From: Arthonia radiata
Lineage: Eukaryota > Ascomycota > Arthoniomycetes > Arthoniales > Arthoniaceae
Assembly: GCA_002989075.1 (NCBI GenBank)
Contig: PSQN01000003.1
Location: 1,802,340-1,866,339, forward strand
Reading direction: 5' to 3'
DNA length: 64,000 nt
Made by a program: the position numbers and the translations under genes. Below the pieces are notes generated by a model. It was not told the DNA's origin. It made no database searches and worked only from the letters and a program-made list of their open reading frames with translations. Within the stretch, counting starts at the first letter, position 1. Every line of letters starts with the position of its first letter. Below, piece by piece: positions 11,761 to 20,710 of the stretch.

Positions 11761-13460
11761 TCACAGGAAGCTGATGCCGACACCCAAACTCAGCCCTTTG
11801 CGCGCCTCCTCACCTCTCCGTACAATCAACGGCAAGCTGAAGTTGAGCTCAAAGCGCGCCACGGGCATGGCGTAAACAACGCCTACGCCAGCAGCTACGC
11901 TGGGCATCTCCTTCCCAAGCTCGCTGAGTGTGTAGCTCACACTCTGCTTCACGTCTGCTGGAGTCAGCTGTGACGATTGCCCACCCTTCTCTGACGCTTG
12001 TCGTAGATCTTGCAGTCCAAGTAGGCGTCCACCGTTCATGAACAGCTGTAGCCGTAACGGCACGTCCTTGCCCGCTCGTGGAAACGGTAGGTAGAGGCTC
12101 GCACCGCCTGCAGCATACACGTCCCCTCCGACACTGTCATTGCCATCTCGAGGTCCCAGTCCAGCTATTCGAAAACCCCTGACATCCGTCGGTCCGCCGA
12201 GCGTGAATCGATCATTGACACGACTGTTCTGCGGTGGAGCGCCCAGCGGATCTCGTCCCAGCGCAAGAGGGTATAGCAGGCCACCTCTCAGTCCCGCCGT
12301 GAAGCTAATGCCTGAATCTCTTAACAGTGGCACCGCAATTTGATTCTCCACCTCCGCCTTTGCAAACGCAACATCTCCCCGCAGCGGTCCCACACCTGCG
12401 ATCTCCGTCACAGCCCGCATCAGGGTGCCGGTGCTGGGAAGCACAGGGTTGTCCCGCATATCTCTTGTGTACGTGTGCGTCACCGACGACTTGAAGCTGT
12501 CGCCCGCATCCTGCCGTATGCTTGGGCTCGCGCCTTCACCCAAGCCTGTTAGCTGCCGCCACAGCCCTCCATAGCTCAATTCATGCCTGTGGCCACCTTC
12601 TGTGCCGTATCTGAACTTCGCAAAGCCACCTTTCAGGATTTCTTCATGGCTCGCCCACGCCTTCTGCGTCGCGCTTGCGAGCCCGCTGAGTTCAAATCGG
12701 AAGTCGGGGTTGGACAGGACAGGGGTGTCAAAGCTTGCGCTGTACGCGCTGCGCGTTCGTGTGCCGCGGGATGCTGTGGCTGAGAGAGATTCAGCGCCGC
12801 CGAAGATGTTGCGGAGAAGGAGTTGGCCTTGGACTGAGCCGTCGTTAGAGCCAGCCCAGGCGCCAGTGGTGAGGACGAGGCGGGACTTTTCGCGGACGGG
12901 GAGGGTAGCGGCGAGGTCGGTGGCTGTAGTGCTGGGGTCTGTCGGGTCGGGTTTCTCGAGGTAGAGGGGGATGGGTGTTTCGAAGATGTCTGGGAGAGAG
13001 GTGAGCAGCGGACGGCTTTCGAGGTACTGGGGATGATGGCCTACCAAAGCGGTTGAGCCTGTCAACACTTTTGCCTATCTTGGAGATGGCCTCTTGGAGT
13101 GTGTACGGCGCCTCATTGTTGGCGCTGAGGAGTGGATTGAAGATGCGACCAAGGAAGCCTTCGCGCGTGTAGTTTGCGTTGCGGACGCTGATGGATGAGA
13201 GGGTGGTTGGAAGGGTAGTGTTCTCGTCGATCTGCTTAATGTCAACCGTGCTTGCAATTGGCTGAACATCAAAGTCTCTGACCAGCTCTGTCAATCGTGC
13301 GTGAGCTTTGGCTTGCTGTACGAGCACTCTGCGCTGGACTTCTTCCTCGTGTCGCAACTGAGCAGATGGGTCCTGCGAGCCTCTAAGCTGCTCGAATGGC
13401 TGCGGAAAGTCAGCGAGCTGCTGGTAAGCCAGGAACAGTAGCACTTACGCTCTGTGCCAT
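11761..13460 (-). CDS. SAM50: Sam50/Omp85 mitochondrial outer-membrane beta-barrel assembly protein
   Basis: Three exons on the minus strand: a 12-nt first exon (13449-13460, four codons), 13045-13399 and 11761-12989. Introns are 49 nt (13400-13448, GTAAGT) and 55 nt (12990-13044, with the unusual GTAGGC 5' site). The joined frame is 531 residues. An N-terminal POTRA-like region (about 45-150) is followed by a C-terminal 16-strand bacterial surface antigen domain. The conserved L6-loop motif VRGF is visible in GPTDVRGFRIAGLGPRDG, and the protein ends in a beta-signal-like strand (KGLSLGVGISFL). The second intron join creates RF-DIFETP, the usual sequence before the barrel, which supports the odd donor site. 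Known role: core of the SAM complex, which inserts beta-barrels such as Tom40 and porin. The start is 186 bp from the divergent tRNA-Thr. Confidence 0.95.
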
Positions 13461-13612: not shown

Positions 13613-13622
13613 TTTATATATT
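13613..13622 (+). promoter_or_regulatory. TATA box upstream of tRNA-Thr
   Basis: The string tttatatatt lies 25-34 bp upstream of the tRNA 5' end at 13647. An upstream TATA element at about -30 is known for Pol III tRNA genes in fission yeast, and its position here supports 13647 as the 5' end of the gene. It could also serve the divergent SAM50 gene, which starts at 13460. Confidence 0.6.
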
Positions 13623-13660
13623 GATGTACGTTTAGCTAGGACATCTGCCCTCTTAGCTCA

Positions 13661-13719
13661 GTATGTCAAATACTCCATCTTGAACAGATGGTAACAGCTA
13701 CTGACGGGTCACGAATTAG
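13661..13719 (+). other. mRNA-type intron candidate in the tRNA D-loop (59 nt)
   Basis: The segment begins GTATGT, has ctactgacg (CTGAC branch-site consensus) at 13698-13706, and ends TTAG. Its length and branch-to-acceptor distance (about 15 nt) match the mRNA introns of neighbouring genes. Removing it precisely joins TAGCTCA to GTGGTAGAGC, the standard D-arm. It is not at the canonical tRNA intron position, and a bulge-helix-bulge substrate is not evident. Confidence 0.75.
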
Positions 13720-13741
13720 GTGGTAGAGCGCATCACTAGTA

Positions 13742-13751
13742 TATGATGTCG
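13742..13751 (+). other. Canonical-position tRNA intron (10 nt) after base 37
   Basis: The segment tatgatgtcg lies directly after A37. Without it the anticodon loop has seven bases and the variable loop five. It repeats the 3' anticodon-stem strand (tgatg), so the stem could pair with either copy. This suggests a small tandem duplication origin. The tRNA splicing endonuclease would be the expected enzyme. Confidence 0.7.
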
Positions 13752-13784
13752 ATGATGAGGTCACTGGTTCGATTCCAGTAGAGG

Positions 13785-13850
13785 GTGAGTCTTCAATAGA
13801 GCATCACTATTCGTTCTCAGAACAACATGTGCTGATATCAATATCTCCAG
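13785..13850 (+). other. mRNA-type intron candidate in the 3' acceptor strand (66 nt)
   Basis: The segment begins GTGAGT, carries a gctgat branch-like site at 13831-13836, and ends CTCCAG. Removing it joins AGAGG to GCA, which completes the acceptor stem and supplies A73. Without removal the stem would end in a G-T pair with a G discriminator. An internal TCAG at 13817-13820 is an alternative acceptor but does not restore the stem. Confidence 0.7.
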
Positions 13851-13853
13851 GCA

Positions 13854-14279
13854 TTTGAACAATTCAACGCCTCAATAAGTTTTTAGTTTTTGACCATACC
13901 GTGGTTGTTGCTGCTATGCCGTCTATACATGTTTCGGGTACAGCATGCACTGTACAGCATGCGCCAAGATATAAACAACAAGCCTCTTTGAGGTGGTACT
14001 CATGTGCATTCTCCTCGCAGGCGAGCGTATTGCGTTTGAGTCCCTCTCAGGTTCGCTGTAAAAGACGATACTCCATATCCATACGTGCCAGACTATTTCT
14101 ATCTATACTTGACACGCGGCCCCTGAGGTCGGAGTCCGCAAGCAGCATGTCCCCGTCGCAAGATCAAAGGAAGCTCCCGTGTTGCGCGAGGGGCCAGAAC
14201 AGCTCGTGGATTTCGCTAATCCTTCAAGCTGTCTTCTTCGACATCTAATCCGAGTGTGGTCAGTGGCTCCTCCGCTGCC
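13854..14279. other. Intergenic, promoter of glycosyltransferase 1
   Basis: This contains the tRNA terminator runs and then the promoter and leader of the plus-strand glycosyltransferase. A direct repeat acagcatgcactgtacagcatgc lies near 13939-13961 (two copies of acagcatgc). No coding gene is recognised; a 115-codon frame here lacks supporting features. Confidence 0.5.
13880..13891 (+). terminator. Pol III terminator-like T runs
   Basis: Two runs of five T (13880-13884 and 13887-13891) lie 27-38 bp after the tRNA 3' end. They are the first T4-or-longer runs beyond the gene on this strand. A Pol III transcript would therefore contain all three introns. Confidence 0.6.
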
Positions 14280-15944
14280 ATGGCGGAGAATCTTCGTCTA
14301 AGAAACGCCATGCACGGCGGATATCGGCGCGCCTCGCAAGCGCAAGATGAAGAAGGGCAAGATCTACTCGCGAGTAAATTATACAAGAACTCAACACCGC
14401 AGTCTTGGACCTCAAGGGTCCTTCGAAACCGCTCAATTGCAGAGGCATGCGTAGCGGTACTCCTGCTTCTCAGCGTATTCTCCCTTTTGCTGAGAACGGA
14501 AGACCCACGCGACACCGTCAAAGACTTCCTCCGTCCATTCAACCATCCACCCAAGTCGCCTGCACAACAACCACTACGCGAGGATGGTCTGCACCTCATC
14601 ATCCCGACCTCGCACCCCGACATCAACCTCTGCAAGCTTCTCCTCGGCGCGTCCCTGCTCGGCTATCCCACCCCCATTCTCGCCGCCTGGAATGAGGAAT
14701 ACAACCGCGAAGGCATCCTCGGTGGTGGCAGCCATGTCGCCAAGGTCTCTAAAGTCCTCGAGTACCTTCAACTCCTCCCAGCTGATCAGGATGACGACCT
14801 CGTCATGATGCTGGACGCCTACGACATCTGGCTGCAGTTGCCGCCCTCTGTCTTGATCTCTCGCTACTTCGAGCTTCTTTCCACGGCCCAATCCAATTTG
14901 GAGACCACTCTTGGCGTCAATGCCGTGCGCAAAGAAGGGCTGGAAAATCTCATCCTCTTCGGCGCCGGCAAACGCTGCGCCCCCAATCAATCTCACACCG
15001 TCGCTTGCTACGCCATCCCCGACTCTCCGCTCCCCACCGACCTCTACGGCAACAACACCGACACCATCATCGGGCACACCTACTGGTACTCCACGCGCCA
15101 GCGCTACCTGAACTCCGGCTCCATCATTGGGCGTGTTGGGCCCATGCGCCGCATGTTCGCCGAGGCGTGGAAGCTGATTGAAGTGCACCCCGACAAGGAT
15201 CCCCTCGACGACGGCAGCGGAGGCAGCGACTTCATGTACCACGGCTCCGACCAGAGCATCTTCGCGGGCATGTACGGAAGGCAGGAGTGGGCGCGCGAGA
15301 AGCTGCGGCTGAAGCATGCGGGGCGTGGCGCCAAGGTCAGGAGTAGCAGTATCCTGGGCACGCCGATCGATAATGTGCTTGAACCGAGCGTGGCGCACGA
15401 GCATATCGATCTCGATTTGAGCGCGGGGAATCCGTGGGAGTTTGGCATGTTCCTGGATTACTGGAGTGACGTGTCACATCAGACGGTGAACTCGGAGACG
15501 GACGGGACGTGGCTTCATTACAACAAGCAGCCCGTTGCAGCGCAGATTGGCGAGCGTACGCACTTCGACTGTGCTCCTCACATCCCTGACGGCGTCCCGG
15601 TGGATGTCCTCAACGCGACTATCCCTGGCCAGCGCGACGAGGGCTGGGAAAGCCGTTCACTGTACACGCATCTGTGTCTCGGGCGTGTTCCGGTAATGGT
15701 GCACCATAACGGTGATAAGGGACGGCGGGAGAGCGATTGGCCGCGGATGTGGTACCTGGGCAACGGCTCAGAGATGATGGAGCAGCTGTGGAAGACGCTG
15801 CCTGGAGAGCCGGGCAGCTTTGAGGATGCGACGAGGCGGCCACGGTTGAGGAGTGCTGGGGGCGCGTGGAGTGATAAGGGAGATTATATGGCATGGAGTG
15901 AGGTTTGTCCTGGGGAGTGGCATGGGGAGATATTCACACATTAG
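14280..15944 (+). CDS. PLOD-like glycosyltransferase, type II membrane protein (GT1)
   Basis: A single-exon frame of 554 residues from the ATG at 14280 (context ctgccATGG); the open frame just upstream has only a GTG. A cytosolic tail of about 52 residues precedes one hydrophobic segment (about 53-72), giving signal-anchor topology with the catalytic part in the Golgi or ER lumen. The domain opens with LHLIIPTSH (105-112). It contains a DxxD-type metal/nucleotide motif, LDAYDIWLQLPP (178-189), then LNSGSIIG (277-284) and GSDQSIF (322-328), in the same order as the glucosyltransferase domain of procollagen lysyl hydroxylases (PLOD). N-glycosylation sequons are present. Donor and acceptor are unknown. 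It is a clear paralogue of the convergent gene at 16536-18353; both end in a WS-x-(V/I)-C motif. A 276-codon antisense frame is a shadow. Confidence 0.85.
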   Translation: MAENLRLRNAMHGGYRRASQAQDEEGQDLLASKLYKNSTPQSWTSRVLRNRSIAEACVAVLLLLSVFSLLLRTEDPRDTVKDFLRPFNHPPKSPAQQPLREDGLHLIIPTSHPDINLCKLLLGASLLGYPTPILAAWNEEYNREGILGGGSHVAKVSKVLEYLQLLPADQDDDLVMMLDAYDIWLQLPPSVLISRYFELLSTAQSNLETTLGVNAVRKEGLENLILFGAGKRCAPNQSHTVACYAIPDSPLPTDLYGNNTDTIIGHTYWYSTRQRYLNSGSIIGRVGPMRRMFAEAWKLIEVHPDKDPLDDGSGGSDFMYHGSDQSIFAGMYGRQEWAREKLRLKHAGRGAKVRSSSILGTPIDNVLEPSVAHEHIDLDLSAGNPWEFGMFLDYWSDVSHQTVNSETDGTWLHYNKQPVAAQIGERTHFDCAPHIPDGVPVDVLNATIPGQRDEGWESRSLYTHLCLGRVPVMVHHNGDKGRRESDWPRMWYLGNGSEMMEQLWKTLPGEPGSFEDATRRPRLRSAGGAWSDKGDYMAWSEVCPGEWHGEIFTH

Positions 15945-16535: not shown

Positions 16536-18353
16536 CTACGGTTCCGGCTCGTTTACAAAAACACTCTGCTCAGAATGTCCGCAGATCTGTGACCAATCCA
16601 TCCAGTCTCCGTAGTCCGCTACGGCGCCGCCAGGCTGTAGACCAGACGAGAGTTCCATGACCGTTTCCGGTACGTAGGGGTACCAAGTGCGGTTGTTGCT
16701 CTTTGTGGTGACATATGGCACATCGGCGCGTACCACTTCGGCGTTCCTGATGATCGCCTCCGCGTAGGGTGCGAACCACATGCGAAACCACCACAGATCG
16801 AGCCAATGCTTGGGGGGCGTGTAGTGGATCAAGCCCCAGATGCGGTTCGAGGCGATGTTGTGGCCGAGGAGGAGGTCTGACCACCCAATGTTACGGGGTG
16901 GCACTGCGGCGGTGGGGCCCAATTCCCCGTTCGTCGCATTGCTGTTTCTAGTGTTGTCGCGAACAAGATGATCGAACGGTCCCCGGGATTCAGAAACGTC
17001 CTTGGGAAGCCTTCGTCGCTTGTAGGGCGCGTCGAGCAATGGATCTCTCAGCGGTGGAGTCTCCACATCGCCATATGAAGCAGTATTTGCGATGGCTGCA
17101 ATAGCGGCGTTGAGAGTCTCTGTTGAGTCTCTTGAGCCAAGCGCTGGCGTTGCATTCTCGAAGCGTCCCCAGGTGATGAAGTGGTCGTAGTAGGCGACCG
17201 TCTGAAATAGCTGCGACTCGTAGTCAAGAGTGATGTGGAACTCAGTCTTCTCGCCTGGGTCGATTATGGGCTCCTGTAGTCGGACATCCTCGTAATGGCC
17301 CTCGCCACCCCAACCATCGTGAACCCACTTGTTCTGCGTGAAGGACTCAGGCAGGGTCCCTGAGATGTTCATGCGGGTGAATTCTTGAATGCCCCAGAGA
17401 TCGGAGAAGTAGAACTGGTCCGAGTCGACGGTGTAGTGTTTCTCGATACGGTTGTGCGTCGCTTGGAACAGTGCGCGCAAATCCTCCGCCGGGCCCATGA
17501 TTGTGCCTGAGTTGAGCCAACGCGGCTGATTGTGATGTCGCCACTTCTGGGAGTCCGTCTCTGGTCCAAACGCCCAACGTGACAAGGTGGTATTTGGCAC
17601 TGCCCAGCACGCGGTACGGTCCATCTCTTCTGGCCAGCATACTTTGTCAGGGCCAAAGAGAATCGACTGATACAGACCGTGGTCACGCATGAGCTTCTCG
17701 CCATCCGGTCCGAGTGAGGCTCGCAGGTGCAAGTTTGCAGCTTCGATGACGGAGAAATAGCGCTGGATCATAACATCGGGTGGCAGCTGCATCCAGATGT
17801 CAAAGCCATCGATGATGAGAACAAGGTCATCGCGGCTTGTCGAGTGGAGAGTCGTTGAATTGGTGGGATTGACGATGCGGTTCAAGTAGTCGAGTATGCC
17901 TTCTACCTTGCCCATGTGCACTTTGTACGGATCCTCATCCACCGGCGTATCCCAATTGATCAGGATTGGCGTGGGAAAGCGCGTAGCAACCGCACTGGTG
18001 AGTAAGCGGCAAAAGTTCTTGTTGCTGTTGGTCGCGGGGATCAAGAAGTGAAAGCGGCCACGGTTCTCAGACTGCGGGACTCCATCGTGGGCTTCGCCGT
18101 CTTGGCCCCCACCGAAGAATGACTTCAGGTAGTTCGAAGACGGCACGAAGGAAGACGAAGAGCCATGAGCTGCTTGAGATGACGAGACATGAGCAGACTA
18201 GGTGGACAATGAGCTCTTTGCTTGAGGAAGACATGGCATGAGATGTCTTACCTTGCTACCGATTACTATGAGGAGAAGGAAGAATGCGCAGGCGGACCCT
18301 ATGAAAATTCGTGGACTGCAGAAGTCGCGTTTCAAAGCGACAAACGCAACCAT
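16536..18353 (-). CDS. PLOD-like glycosyltransferase, type II membrane protein (GT2)
   Basis: Two exons: 18252-18353 (34 codons) and 16536-18197, joined across a 54-nt intron (18198-18251, GTAAGA...CTAG), give 587 residues. The long exon alone lacks an ATG start. The short exon supplies one, plus a hydrophobic signal anchor (about residues 15-32, rich in F, L and I). A Ser-rich linker follows. The catalytic domain shows FHFLIPATNS (83-92), the DxxD motif IDGFDIWMQLPP (163-174), LNSGTIMGP (262-270) and DSDQ (292-295), the same order as in GT1. The C-terminal part holds a longer insert than GT1 (about 350-460). The luminal domain and membrane anchor suggest Golgi or ER glycan assembly. The substrate is unknown. 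The 5' exon is inferred from splice signals, frame and the anchor. Confidence 0.82.
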
Positions 18354-19535: not shown

Positions 19536-20710
19536 TCATGACTTCGTCTTACTGTCTAGCTCTGTTTTGGTGTACCACGCGACTCCACCAAGTGCTATCG
19601 CCATGCCCAGCCCATTGATCGGTGTGACCGTCACGCTGAAGAAAACCACACCGAGCAGAATCGTCAGCATTTGCTTGGTGTTGGCTGCGACCGCCATTGT
19701 CAATGCGCCAGCTGCCTTGTTGGTCTTGAACGAGCTAATGTTGAGCAGGAACGCGAGCACGCCGTTGCCCAAGACGGCCAGCAGCACGCCTCGCTTGAGT
19801 GACCCCTGCTCGTAGGCGACCGTCAGAGAACCGTACTCGCCAGCCAGAAACGCGCATCCAAGACTTTGAAGTGCTGCCAGTGGAGCTAGTCGCAGGAGCA
19901 GCTCAAGCGGTGGCAACTTCAATCGGCCAACCATCAGTCTGTTCGTCGCCATGGTTTTGACGGCCGCGAGGACGACGCCGAGCAACGTGAGCAAGAAGCC
20001 CACGAGCGTGAAGTAGTAGTCGCCATACGTAGCCAAGCCGGCGCCGGCGATGATGGGAAGCAGCGAGAGGTAGGTGAGCGTGCCGTAGGTGCGCGAGTAA
20101 AACACGCGATAGAGCAGGACTGTGAATGCTGGACAGGTTGACCGAAGGGTTTGGTGGAACGGTACAGACACCAACGCGCTACAGCCGCAATTAGCATAGG
20201 CACTGGAACATGATATAGCTCGCCGACGTACAGTGAAATGTTCGAGACCGCAATGTTGGCTGTGAACAGGACGGAGAACGCTACGAGCACCAGACTCTCG
20301 CGTGTCGTCAATCTCGTCAGTGTGAAGAAACCATTGAGGTGCAGTGCAGAGCAGCCGATCGCGAGGCATGTGGCGTGCACGGACGTCAATATCCAAGGAA
20401 AGGCGAAGACGCCGAGGATGGCCTTGTTGTAGATAGTGAGCGAAAGGTTGAGCGTGAAGTAGATGCCGAGGAGCAGCAGCTTCGTCTTCGTGCTGACGTG
20501 GTACTCCAATCCATCACCGACGGGCGGTACTGCAGTTGACCCCTCAATCTTTGACGTTTGCTTGCTCAATCCGTCTTCAAGCATCTCAAGGTCCAGTAGG
20601 GCCCGCGCTTCATCTTCACTGTCGCGCGCGTCGTCATCGCTGGTGCTGAACCGATCTGGCGCGGGCAAAGACTGAAGCTCTTTCTCCGGGTGACCGTGAT
20701 CGTGCGCCAT
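19536..20710 (-). CDS. SLC35/TPT-family sugar-nucleotide or triose-phosphate transporter
   Basis: Two exons (20232-20710 and 19536-20178) around a 53-nt intron (GTACGT...TGTAG) give 373 residues. A hydrophilic acidic N-terminus (about 1-75) is followed by about ten hydrophobic helices. Motifs typical of the TPT/SLC35E-type group include the YNKAIL segment in TM1, VSVPFHQ after the intron join, GLATYGDYYFTLVGF, an AAVKTMATNRLM segment with the conserved Lys-Thr pair, and GEYGSLTV. The join ISL|ALVSVPFH restores a conserved membrane segment, supporting the intron. The family exchanges sugar nucleotides or phosphorylated C3 compounds across Golgi or ER membranes. Divergence from the UDP-glucose dehydrogenase gene makes a UDP-sugar a reasonable guess but not proof. 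The ATG at 20710 is the only in-frame ATG before the acidic tail. Confidence 0.88.

Follow-up and report, generated by a model that had tools for sequence, protein, structure and literature searches.

In standard teaching, nuclear tRNA introns form a class of their own that is cut out by a dedicated enzyme, and the spliceosome acts on RNA polymerase II (Pol II) transcripts, U6 and U3 being the exceptions. One published account (PMC5832005) states that, among small structured RNAs, an intron had so far been known as a frequent feature of U3 and U6 only, and the rDNA of lichen fungi is described in part of another as holding spliceosomal introns, for example one of 57 bp in Cladonia grayi (PMC8527467); the word tRNA occurs 0 times in the main text of the latter. 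Disrupted tRNA genes have also been described: in Cyanidioschyzon merolae permutation, introns or both affect 34 of the 43 nuclear tRNA genes (PMC3978253), the tRNA inserts of the Guillardia theta nucleomorph measure 3-24 nt in a section of PMC4090602, in which the string "spliceosom" occurs 0 times, and further cases appear in parts of PMC8450103. Among the open-access matches listed, none reports spliceosomal introns in tRNA genes by its title or the start of its abstract, preprints and most subscription papers lying outside the scope of that search. We know of no earlier report of such introns.

The tRNA-Thr(AGT) locus considered here lies in the window, by which is meant the whole 64-kb stretch of DNA that was analysed (G000, C9:1802340-1866339), within an assembly of 33.5 Mb and 16 contigs that was searched as the genome. 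Its parts, in window coordinates, are as follows.

13615-13622, plus strand: TATA-like element TATATATT, at -32 to -25 from the tRNA start
13647-13853, plus strand: the locus, 207 bp
13647-13660, plus strand: exon 1, tRNA positions 1-14, comprising the 5' strands of the acceptor and D stems with T8 and A9 between them and A14 at the end
13661-13719, plus strand: mRNA-type intron 1, 59 nt, following A14 of the D loop (14/15); starts GTATGT, CTGAC at 13701-13705, ends TAG
13720-13784, plus strand: exon 2, the remaining D arm, anticodon arm, T arm and acceptor positions 66-70, holding the 37/38 insert
13738-13740, plus strand: anticodon AGT, within exon 2
13742-13751, plus strand: tRNA intron at the canonical 37/38 position, 10 nt, placed by the cloverleaf parse and by the ARAGORN call of Thr(agt) after its removal
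13767-13777, plus strand: B box GGTTCGATTCC, uninterrupted (pattern match C9:1816105-1816115)
13785-13850, plus strand: mRNA-type intron 2, 66 nt, interrupting the acceptor stem at 70/71; starts GTGAGT, CTGAT at 13832-13836, ends CAG
13851-13853, plus strand: exon 3, G71, C72 and A73; the same GCA closes the unsplit acceptor of tRNA-Thr(TGT), L053
13880-13884 and 13887-13891, plus strand: first T5 runs 3' of the gene, likely Pol III terminator

With all three inserts taken out, the cloverleaf parse gives a 72-nt tRNA with 21/21 pairs and A73, the stems being GCCCTCT/AGAGGGC (acceptor), GCTC/GAGC (D), CATCA/TGATG (anticodon) and ACTGG/CCAGT (T), and ARAGORN calls the product tRNA-Thr(agt). The earlier note had proposed that a 72-nt tRNA-Thr(AGT) emerges once these segments are removed, which is correct to the base, and the coordinates and splice motifs that it gave for the 59- and 66-nt segments stand on re-reading of the sequence. 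When the 10-nt insert is kept and both mRNA-type introns are out, ARAGORN returns only "???" (agta), and in the unspliced window no tRNA is found by ARAGORN (bacterial setting) or by Rfam at the gathering score. Unlike the 10-nt insert, which occupies 37/38, those of 59 and 66 nt interrupt the tRNA at 14/15 and 70/71. Accumulated damage was sought as a sign of a pseudogene, and after insert removal the number of broken pairs is zero. The mature sequence stands in a 72-nt alignment with Thr-CGT and Thr-TGT.

How firmly each insert is fixed differs, intron 2 being less well supported than intron 1. When every segment of 30-100 nt upstream of the T arm was deleted in turn (9,372 segments), 19 of these blind removals tied for the top cloverleaf score, with starts at 13660-13666 and ends at 13717-13722, and among the 19 only 13661-13719 has GT...AG ends. 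Removal of intron 2 raises the cloverleaf score by little, from 63 to 64: a near-complete stem persists without it, with a G1.U72 pair and G73, and removal gives G1-C72 and A73. The sequence AGAGGGC followed by A73 is restored by 11 of 994 segments, so that structure alone leaves the 3' end of intron 2 loose; because structure is insufficient, this end rests on the GTGAGT/CTGAT/CAG signals together with the insert that Thr-CGT (L035) also carries at 70/71, where the gain on removal is equally small (59 to 60).

The pattern recurs across the tRNA genes of this genome. Candidates were drawn from B-box plus terminator patterns, from the Rfam tRNA family and from small fetched regions; up to three GT...branch...AG segments were then removed and the cloverleaf scored, each candidate insert having to show a branch-type motif (loose YTNAY) and to score 4 or more for its splice signals. 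The 140 B-box-like sites yielded 33 tRNA genes by cloverleaf score, 17 of which need removals, and the final tally, an incomplete enumeration of a subset biased to intact B boxes, is 18 split genes among 34 recognised tRNA genes, with 30 GT...AG inserts at 25 positions. The sample of sites with an exact B box (GGTTCGANTCC, 36 sites) holds 18 recognised tRNA genes, 10 of them split. The 18 split genes and their mRNA-type introns are these.

Thr-CGT (L035) and Ser-CGA: three introns each
Thr-AGT, Thr-TGT (L053), Arg-CCG (L029), Pro-CGG (L095), Ser-GCT, Tyr-GTA and Ala-CGC: two introns each
Ala-TGC, Leu-CAG, Leu-TAA, Lys-TTT (L033), Gln-CTG, His-GTG and Trp-CCA (L093): one intron each
Ile-AAT: one intron, 19/21 pairs, the weakest case
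Pro-TGG (L107), C11:832900-833250: the 18th gene, with introns at 3/4 and at 60/61 (inside the B box)

All three Thr isoacceptors found (AGT, CGT, TGT) are split, and the spliced forms keep 19-21 of 21 cloverleaf pairs in the 17 of 18 split genes for which pairs were counted. Pro-TGG L107 was found as a foreign match of the spliced-tRNA query and parsed by hand; it and Pro-CGG both have an intron at 3/4, and its 60/61 intron contains three copies of TTCTGAC. An insert at 37/38 is also present in 15 of the 18 split genes (14 of 17, plus L107), and because the parser treats every insert there as canonical, an mRNA-type intron at 37/38 would be undetectable.

Several assignments behind these counts were made case by case. 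Arg-CCT (L005) scores slightly better with a GT-AG removal, yet is intact without it, and was counted as unsplit; for L095 the automatic parse took a wrong intron end, giving Arg-TCT, and the hand parse gives Pro-CGG. The weak members of the unsplit set are L076 and L097. Left uncounted were several candidates, L032, L058, L062, L066 and L099 among them, and the pattern matches C2:716309, C3:1707532 and C11:1292590. Of 1065 candidates in the genome search with RF00005, 63 received a score; Ala-AGC (L031) is one of the genes that this search misses. Outside the 34 genes, L091 (C6:519979-520045) is an RF00005 match just above cut-off, at 29.6 bits and covering positions 8-63.

Controls with a reversed motif bear on whether such removals could succeed by chance. 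A cloverleaf score of 54 is reached by 15 of the 140 sites unspliced, by 31 with real motifs removed and by 17 with the reversed motif, which offers slightly fewer candidates per site (4.1 vs 5.0 for the real one). Within the 18 loci then called split, which were picked by their success with the real motif, the numbers are 2 unspliced, 18 real and 3 reversed, and within the 15 then called intact they are 13, 13 and 14; of the other 107 sites, which lie beyond the tRNA set, not one reaches 54, whether unspliced or with either motif. Given the final 18 split genes unspliced, with L005 left out and L107 included, ARAGORN reports no tRNA for 10, a different isotype for 7 and the anticodon assigned here for one (L098), there with a misplaced 98-nt insert. 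With mRNA-type introns out and 37/38 inserts kept it agrees in 14/18, the exceptions being L027, L037, L092 and L095, and with all inserts out it returns the assigned isotype in 18/18 (L095 with its hand-corrected end). Such acceptance is no proof of exact ends, because L095 with the wrong end was also accepted, as Arg(tct). Of the 18 split genes the Rfam tRNA search picks up 6, with 4 scoring above cut-off. Comparison with unsplit paralogues agrees with the splicing in two cases: once spliced, Arg-CCG (L029) again has the AGATTGTGGGTTCGAGTCCCATCG present in unsplit Arg-TCG (L003), and spliced Lys-TTT (L033) equals unsplit Lys-CTT (L070) around the junction.

The 30 inserts themselves start with GT and end with AG in every case, with G at +5 in 26 and T at +6 in 25, and measure 49-66 nt (median 54). 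CTRAY occurs in 27 of the 30, vs 10.7% of random 55-nt windows, and in all 27 the branch A lies 10-15 nt from the insert end, although 5-38 nt were permitted; the consensus is partly built in by selection, which left the branch distance and the exact +5 and +6 bases free. Judged by ends, branch site and size, the inserts appear to match U2-type spliceosomal introns. Their likeness in size to mRNA introns, claimed in the earlier note, is borne out by the two homology-defined mRNA introns of the window, just two in number, which lie on the minus strand.

12990-13044, minus strand: Sam50 mRNA intron, 55 nt, GTAGGC...CAG, with CTCAC and without CTRAY
20179-20231, minus strand: TPT mRNA intron, 53 nt, GTACGT...CTAAT...TAG

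Prediction of window mRNA introns by frame joining gave 27 noisy candidates and was dropped for these two. The Sam50/Omp85 protein of the window matches Coniocarpon cinnabarinum at 82% over 94%, two higher-placed matches standing at 85% and 80%, and the TPT-family transporter matches the same species at 75% over 56%; for both proteins this is the best relative that bears a species name. Coniocarpon belongs to Arthoniales, Arthoniomycetes, so this fungus is probably a member of that class and may form lichens. Elsewhere in the window, two long open reading frames, 14220-15944 on one strand and 16536-18197 on the other, both weakly match a PLOD glycosyltransferase domain.

The relatedness of the introns was also considered. 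In one blastn query, 28 introns gave 19 matches at E <= 1, each at its own locus, intron 1 of Thr(AGT) being unique in the genome, and the idea of introner copies was rejected, no intron sequence of that query matching beyond its own locus. In global alignment, the score of the Thr 70/71 pair is equalled or exceeded by 326 of 378 intron pairs and that of the Pro 3/4 pair by 93 of 378; neither same-position pair stands out, so that common descent of the Thr 70/71 or of the Pro 3/4 introns is neither shown nor excluded. T5 is absent from the 30 inserts, and as proof of selection this was dropped, since 0 against a chance expectation of only about 1.5 is too weak.

The earlier note had pointed to split U6 genes of other fungi as a precedent, and U6 proves to be split in this genome too: the three matches above cut-off all carry an mRNA-type intron at one shared place, in the arrangement CCCCTGCA|GT..TTACTGAC..AG|CTAAGGATGAC.

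C12:477511: U6, L104
C14:1994194: U6, L105
C2:1988232: U6, L106

These introns measure 51, 55 and 56 nt, start with GTGCGT or GTATGT, contain TTACTGAC and end in CAG or AAG; five weaker U6 matches (E 0.19-0.80) were left out of the count. Seven 5S rRNA matches above cut-off are uninterrupted, covering model positions 1-120 in 119-122 bases. They are dispersed on four contigs (C14, C9, C16 and C1) and, unlike U6 and many tRNA genes, unsplit.

Promoter and terminator features were examined around the same genes. A TATA-like pattern lies at -46..-25 of 10 of the 18 split and 4 of the 16 unsplit tRNA genes, vs 1.8% of random windows, the pattern and range having been chosen after the upstream sequences were inspected. 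In fission yeast Pol III transcription is TATA-assisted, and by analogy the upstream elements seen here would fit such transcription. TTTT is absent from 13647-13879, and genome-wide the pattern of a B-box-like site followed by T5 and GC/GT has 34 matches vs 8 for the reversed pattern. Within the limits that we take for the A box and B box in placing introns, the A-box region is interrupted by 9 of the 30 introns, in 8 genes, and the B box by two introns, at 52/53 in Gln-CTG and at 60/61 in Pro-TGG; such interruption could damage Pol III transcription of the genes concerned.

Taken together, these features make it very probable that tRNA-Thr(AGT) is functional, that the spliceosome and the tRNA endonuclease together mature a Pol III pre-tRNA, and that many tRNA genes of this genome have gained spliceosomal introns. 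Pol III would transcribe the entire gene, starting at 13647 and running through to the T runs, assisted here by the TATA-like element upstream and by a B box that is intact. In the nucleus, the major spliceosome would take out intron 1 from the D loop and intron 2 from the acceptor stem, each as a lariat; the 10-nt intron at 37/38 would be excised by the tRNA endonuclease and the exons joined by the ligase, and trimming of the ends and addition of CCA would leave an ordinary 72-nt tRNA-Thr. Directly observed are the anatomy of the locus, the splice signals, their recurrence in genes for tRNA and U6, and searches that turned up no near-identical intact copies; from the sequence we infer Pol III transcription, spliceosomal removal, the order of the steps and the use of this tRNA in translation. 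Standing against this explanation are the unsplit 5S genes, the interrupted A and B boxes and the Sam50 mRNA intron without CTRAY, and also the unsplit genes that share an anticodon with a split one, the selection behind the consensus, ARAGORN's acceptance of a wrong intron end in L095 and the small structural gain from removing intron 2. It is also probable, at a somewhat lower level of confidence, that the spliceosome is an essential tRNA processor in this lineage, about half of the tRNA genes, including all Thr isoacceptors found, maturing only by its action and often by that of the endonuclease as well, so that the spliceosome would limit translation capacity.

A narrower reading, otherwise compatible with this explanation, is that only intron 1 is real, the acceptor being AGAGGGU with G73, and 13785-13850 simply 3' flank with chance signals. 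The scores of 63 without and 64 with the second removal, and the parallel 59 and 60 in Thr-CGT, would suit this reading, but the full GTGAGT/CTGAT/CAG signals, the insert at 70/71 of Thr-CGT as well, the GGCA that closes the unsplit Thr-TGT acceptor and a first T-run only at 13880 make it unlikely. The earlier note had left a choice between processing by the spliceosome and introns inserted into a gene now dead, and the former is strongly favoured by inserts of this kind in 17 further tRNA genes, by the 19-21 of 21 pairs kept in the split genes for which pairs were counted, and by blastn searches that found no near-identical intact copies of the genes queried. Across the genome, blastn with spliced Thr(AGT) finds its own locus alone and no second copy; a single query of 17 spliced tRNAs gave 28 matches, at the own loci of 16 and at C11:833048, itself the split Pro-TGG, with no match for Ser-CGA, which has short exons, and with L095 entered in wrongly spliced form. 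No near-identical intact copy of the 17 queried genes was found by blastn, an absence that covers near-identical copies only, because the split Trp-CCA query missed the unsplit Trp-CCA L006. Unsplit genes with the anticodon of a split one are Trp-CCA (L006, good), Pro-TGG (L008, uncertain) and, as weak cases, Ala-CGC (L097) and CGG (L076), so that some split genes may be dispensable; none of the 16 unsplit genes is a Thr gene by the cloverleaf parse. At C3:815151-815302, 7 bp separate Trp-CCA (L006) from a Met-CAT-like tRNA gene (L085) arranged in tandem with it, and neither is split. L008 and L081 (C7:416249-416544, minus strand) are adjacent tRNA-like genes with 72-76-nt anticodon-loop inserts, taken as unsplit and uncertain in isotype, which ARAGORN reads as Phe and Pro. 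That Thr(AGT) is a dead relic with inserted introns, translation being served by other, intact Thr genes, is very unlikely. It draws on the incompleteness of the tRNA survey, on the blindness of blastn to diverged intact genes such as L006 and on the weak unsplit L097, which ARAGORN reads as Thr(ggt) with an 84-nt insert. Decay would have broken pairs, but 21/21 are kept here and 19-21 elsewhere, the blastn matches fall on own loci or on a gene itself split, and Thr-AGT, Thr-CGT and Thr-TGT are split alike; the recurrence of the pattern in 18 genes thus speaks against a dead gene, as does the lack of near-identical intact copies among the blastn matches.

The remaining alternatives concern the enzymes. 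Spliceosomes normally act on Pol II transcripts, and it might be supposed that the spliceosome removes these introns from tRNAs made by Pol II, or from a longer Pol II transcript containing the pre-tRNA; the A-box regions broken in 8 genes would agree with this. U6 is a Pol III gene in other organisms, and its introns here are of the same type. This similarity, together with the TATA-like elements near -30, the 34 against 8 matches for T5 with GC/GT after B-box-like sites, and the T5 runs that follow a TTTT-free Thr(AGT) gene, renders Pol II synthesis highly improbable. The tRNA endonuclease that cuts at bulge-helix-bulge (BHB) motifs needs no GT/AG, G5/T6 or CTRAY signals. To regard the inserts as non-canonical tRNA introns cut by it would require the GT...AG ends of 30/30 inserts, their G5/T6 bases and the CTRAY placed 10-15 nt before the end in 27 to be incidental, along with similar signals in U6 introns and in the window's TPT mRNA intron, and this we hold to be exceedingly improbable. 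In its favour are the many positions beyond 37/38, as in archaea and Cyanidioschyzon according to part of PMC3978253.

If spliceosomal removal is the true explanation, a single genome abolishes the divide between tRNA introns and spliceosomal introns, its supply of tRNA depends on the spliceosome, and genes persist despite interrupted A and B boxes. Folding of such tRNAs would have to await, or tolerate, spliceosome assembly. Split tRNA genes are poorly handled by tRNA finders, and genomes that seem to have too few tRNAs may hide the same arrangement. The many intron gains would have taken place at sites free of coding constraint, which bears on the origin of spliceosomal introns.

The 10-nt insert at 13742-13751 shares its position with the canonical nuclear tRNA introns that are removed by the SEN endonuclease at 37/38, from which the 59- and 66-nt inserts differ in lying at 14/15 and 70/71 and in having GT, branch and AG signals. 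Introns at non-canonical places are also a feature of archaeal, C. merolae and Guillardia nucleomorph tRNAs, but in the accounts cited those introns are treated as BHB-type or are very short, many of the Guillardia ones having no defined BHB (PMC3978253). Spliceosomal introns of lichen rDNA, as partly described, are likewise mRNA-type, similar in size and located in non-coding RNA of lichen-forming ascomycetes, and differ in that they belong to Pol I transcripts, whereas those described here lie in tRNA genes. The introns of fungal U6 snRNA and U3 snoRNA, in the accounts drawn on here, similarly interrupt structured small-RNA genes with ordinary pre-mRNA splice signals; there two RNA families are affected, and here 30 introns are distributed over 18 tRNA genes, with up to three in a single gene.
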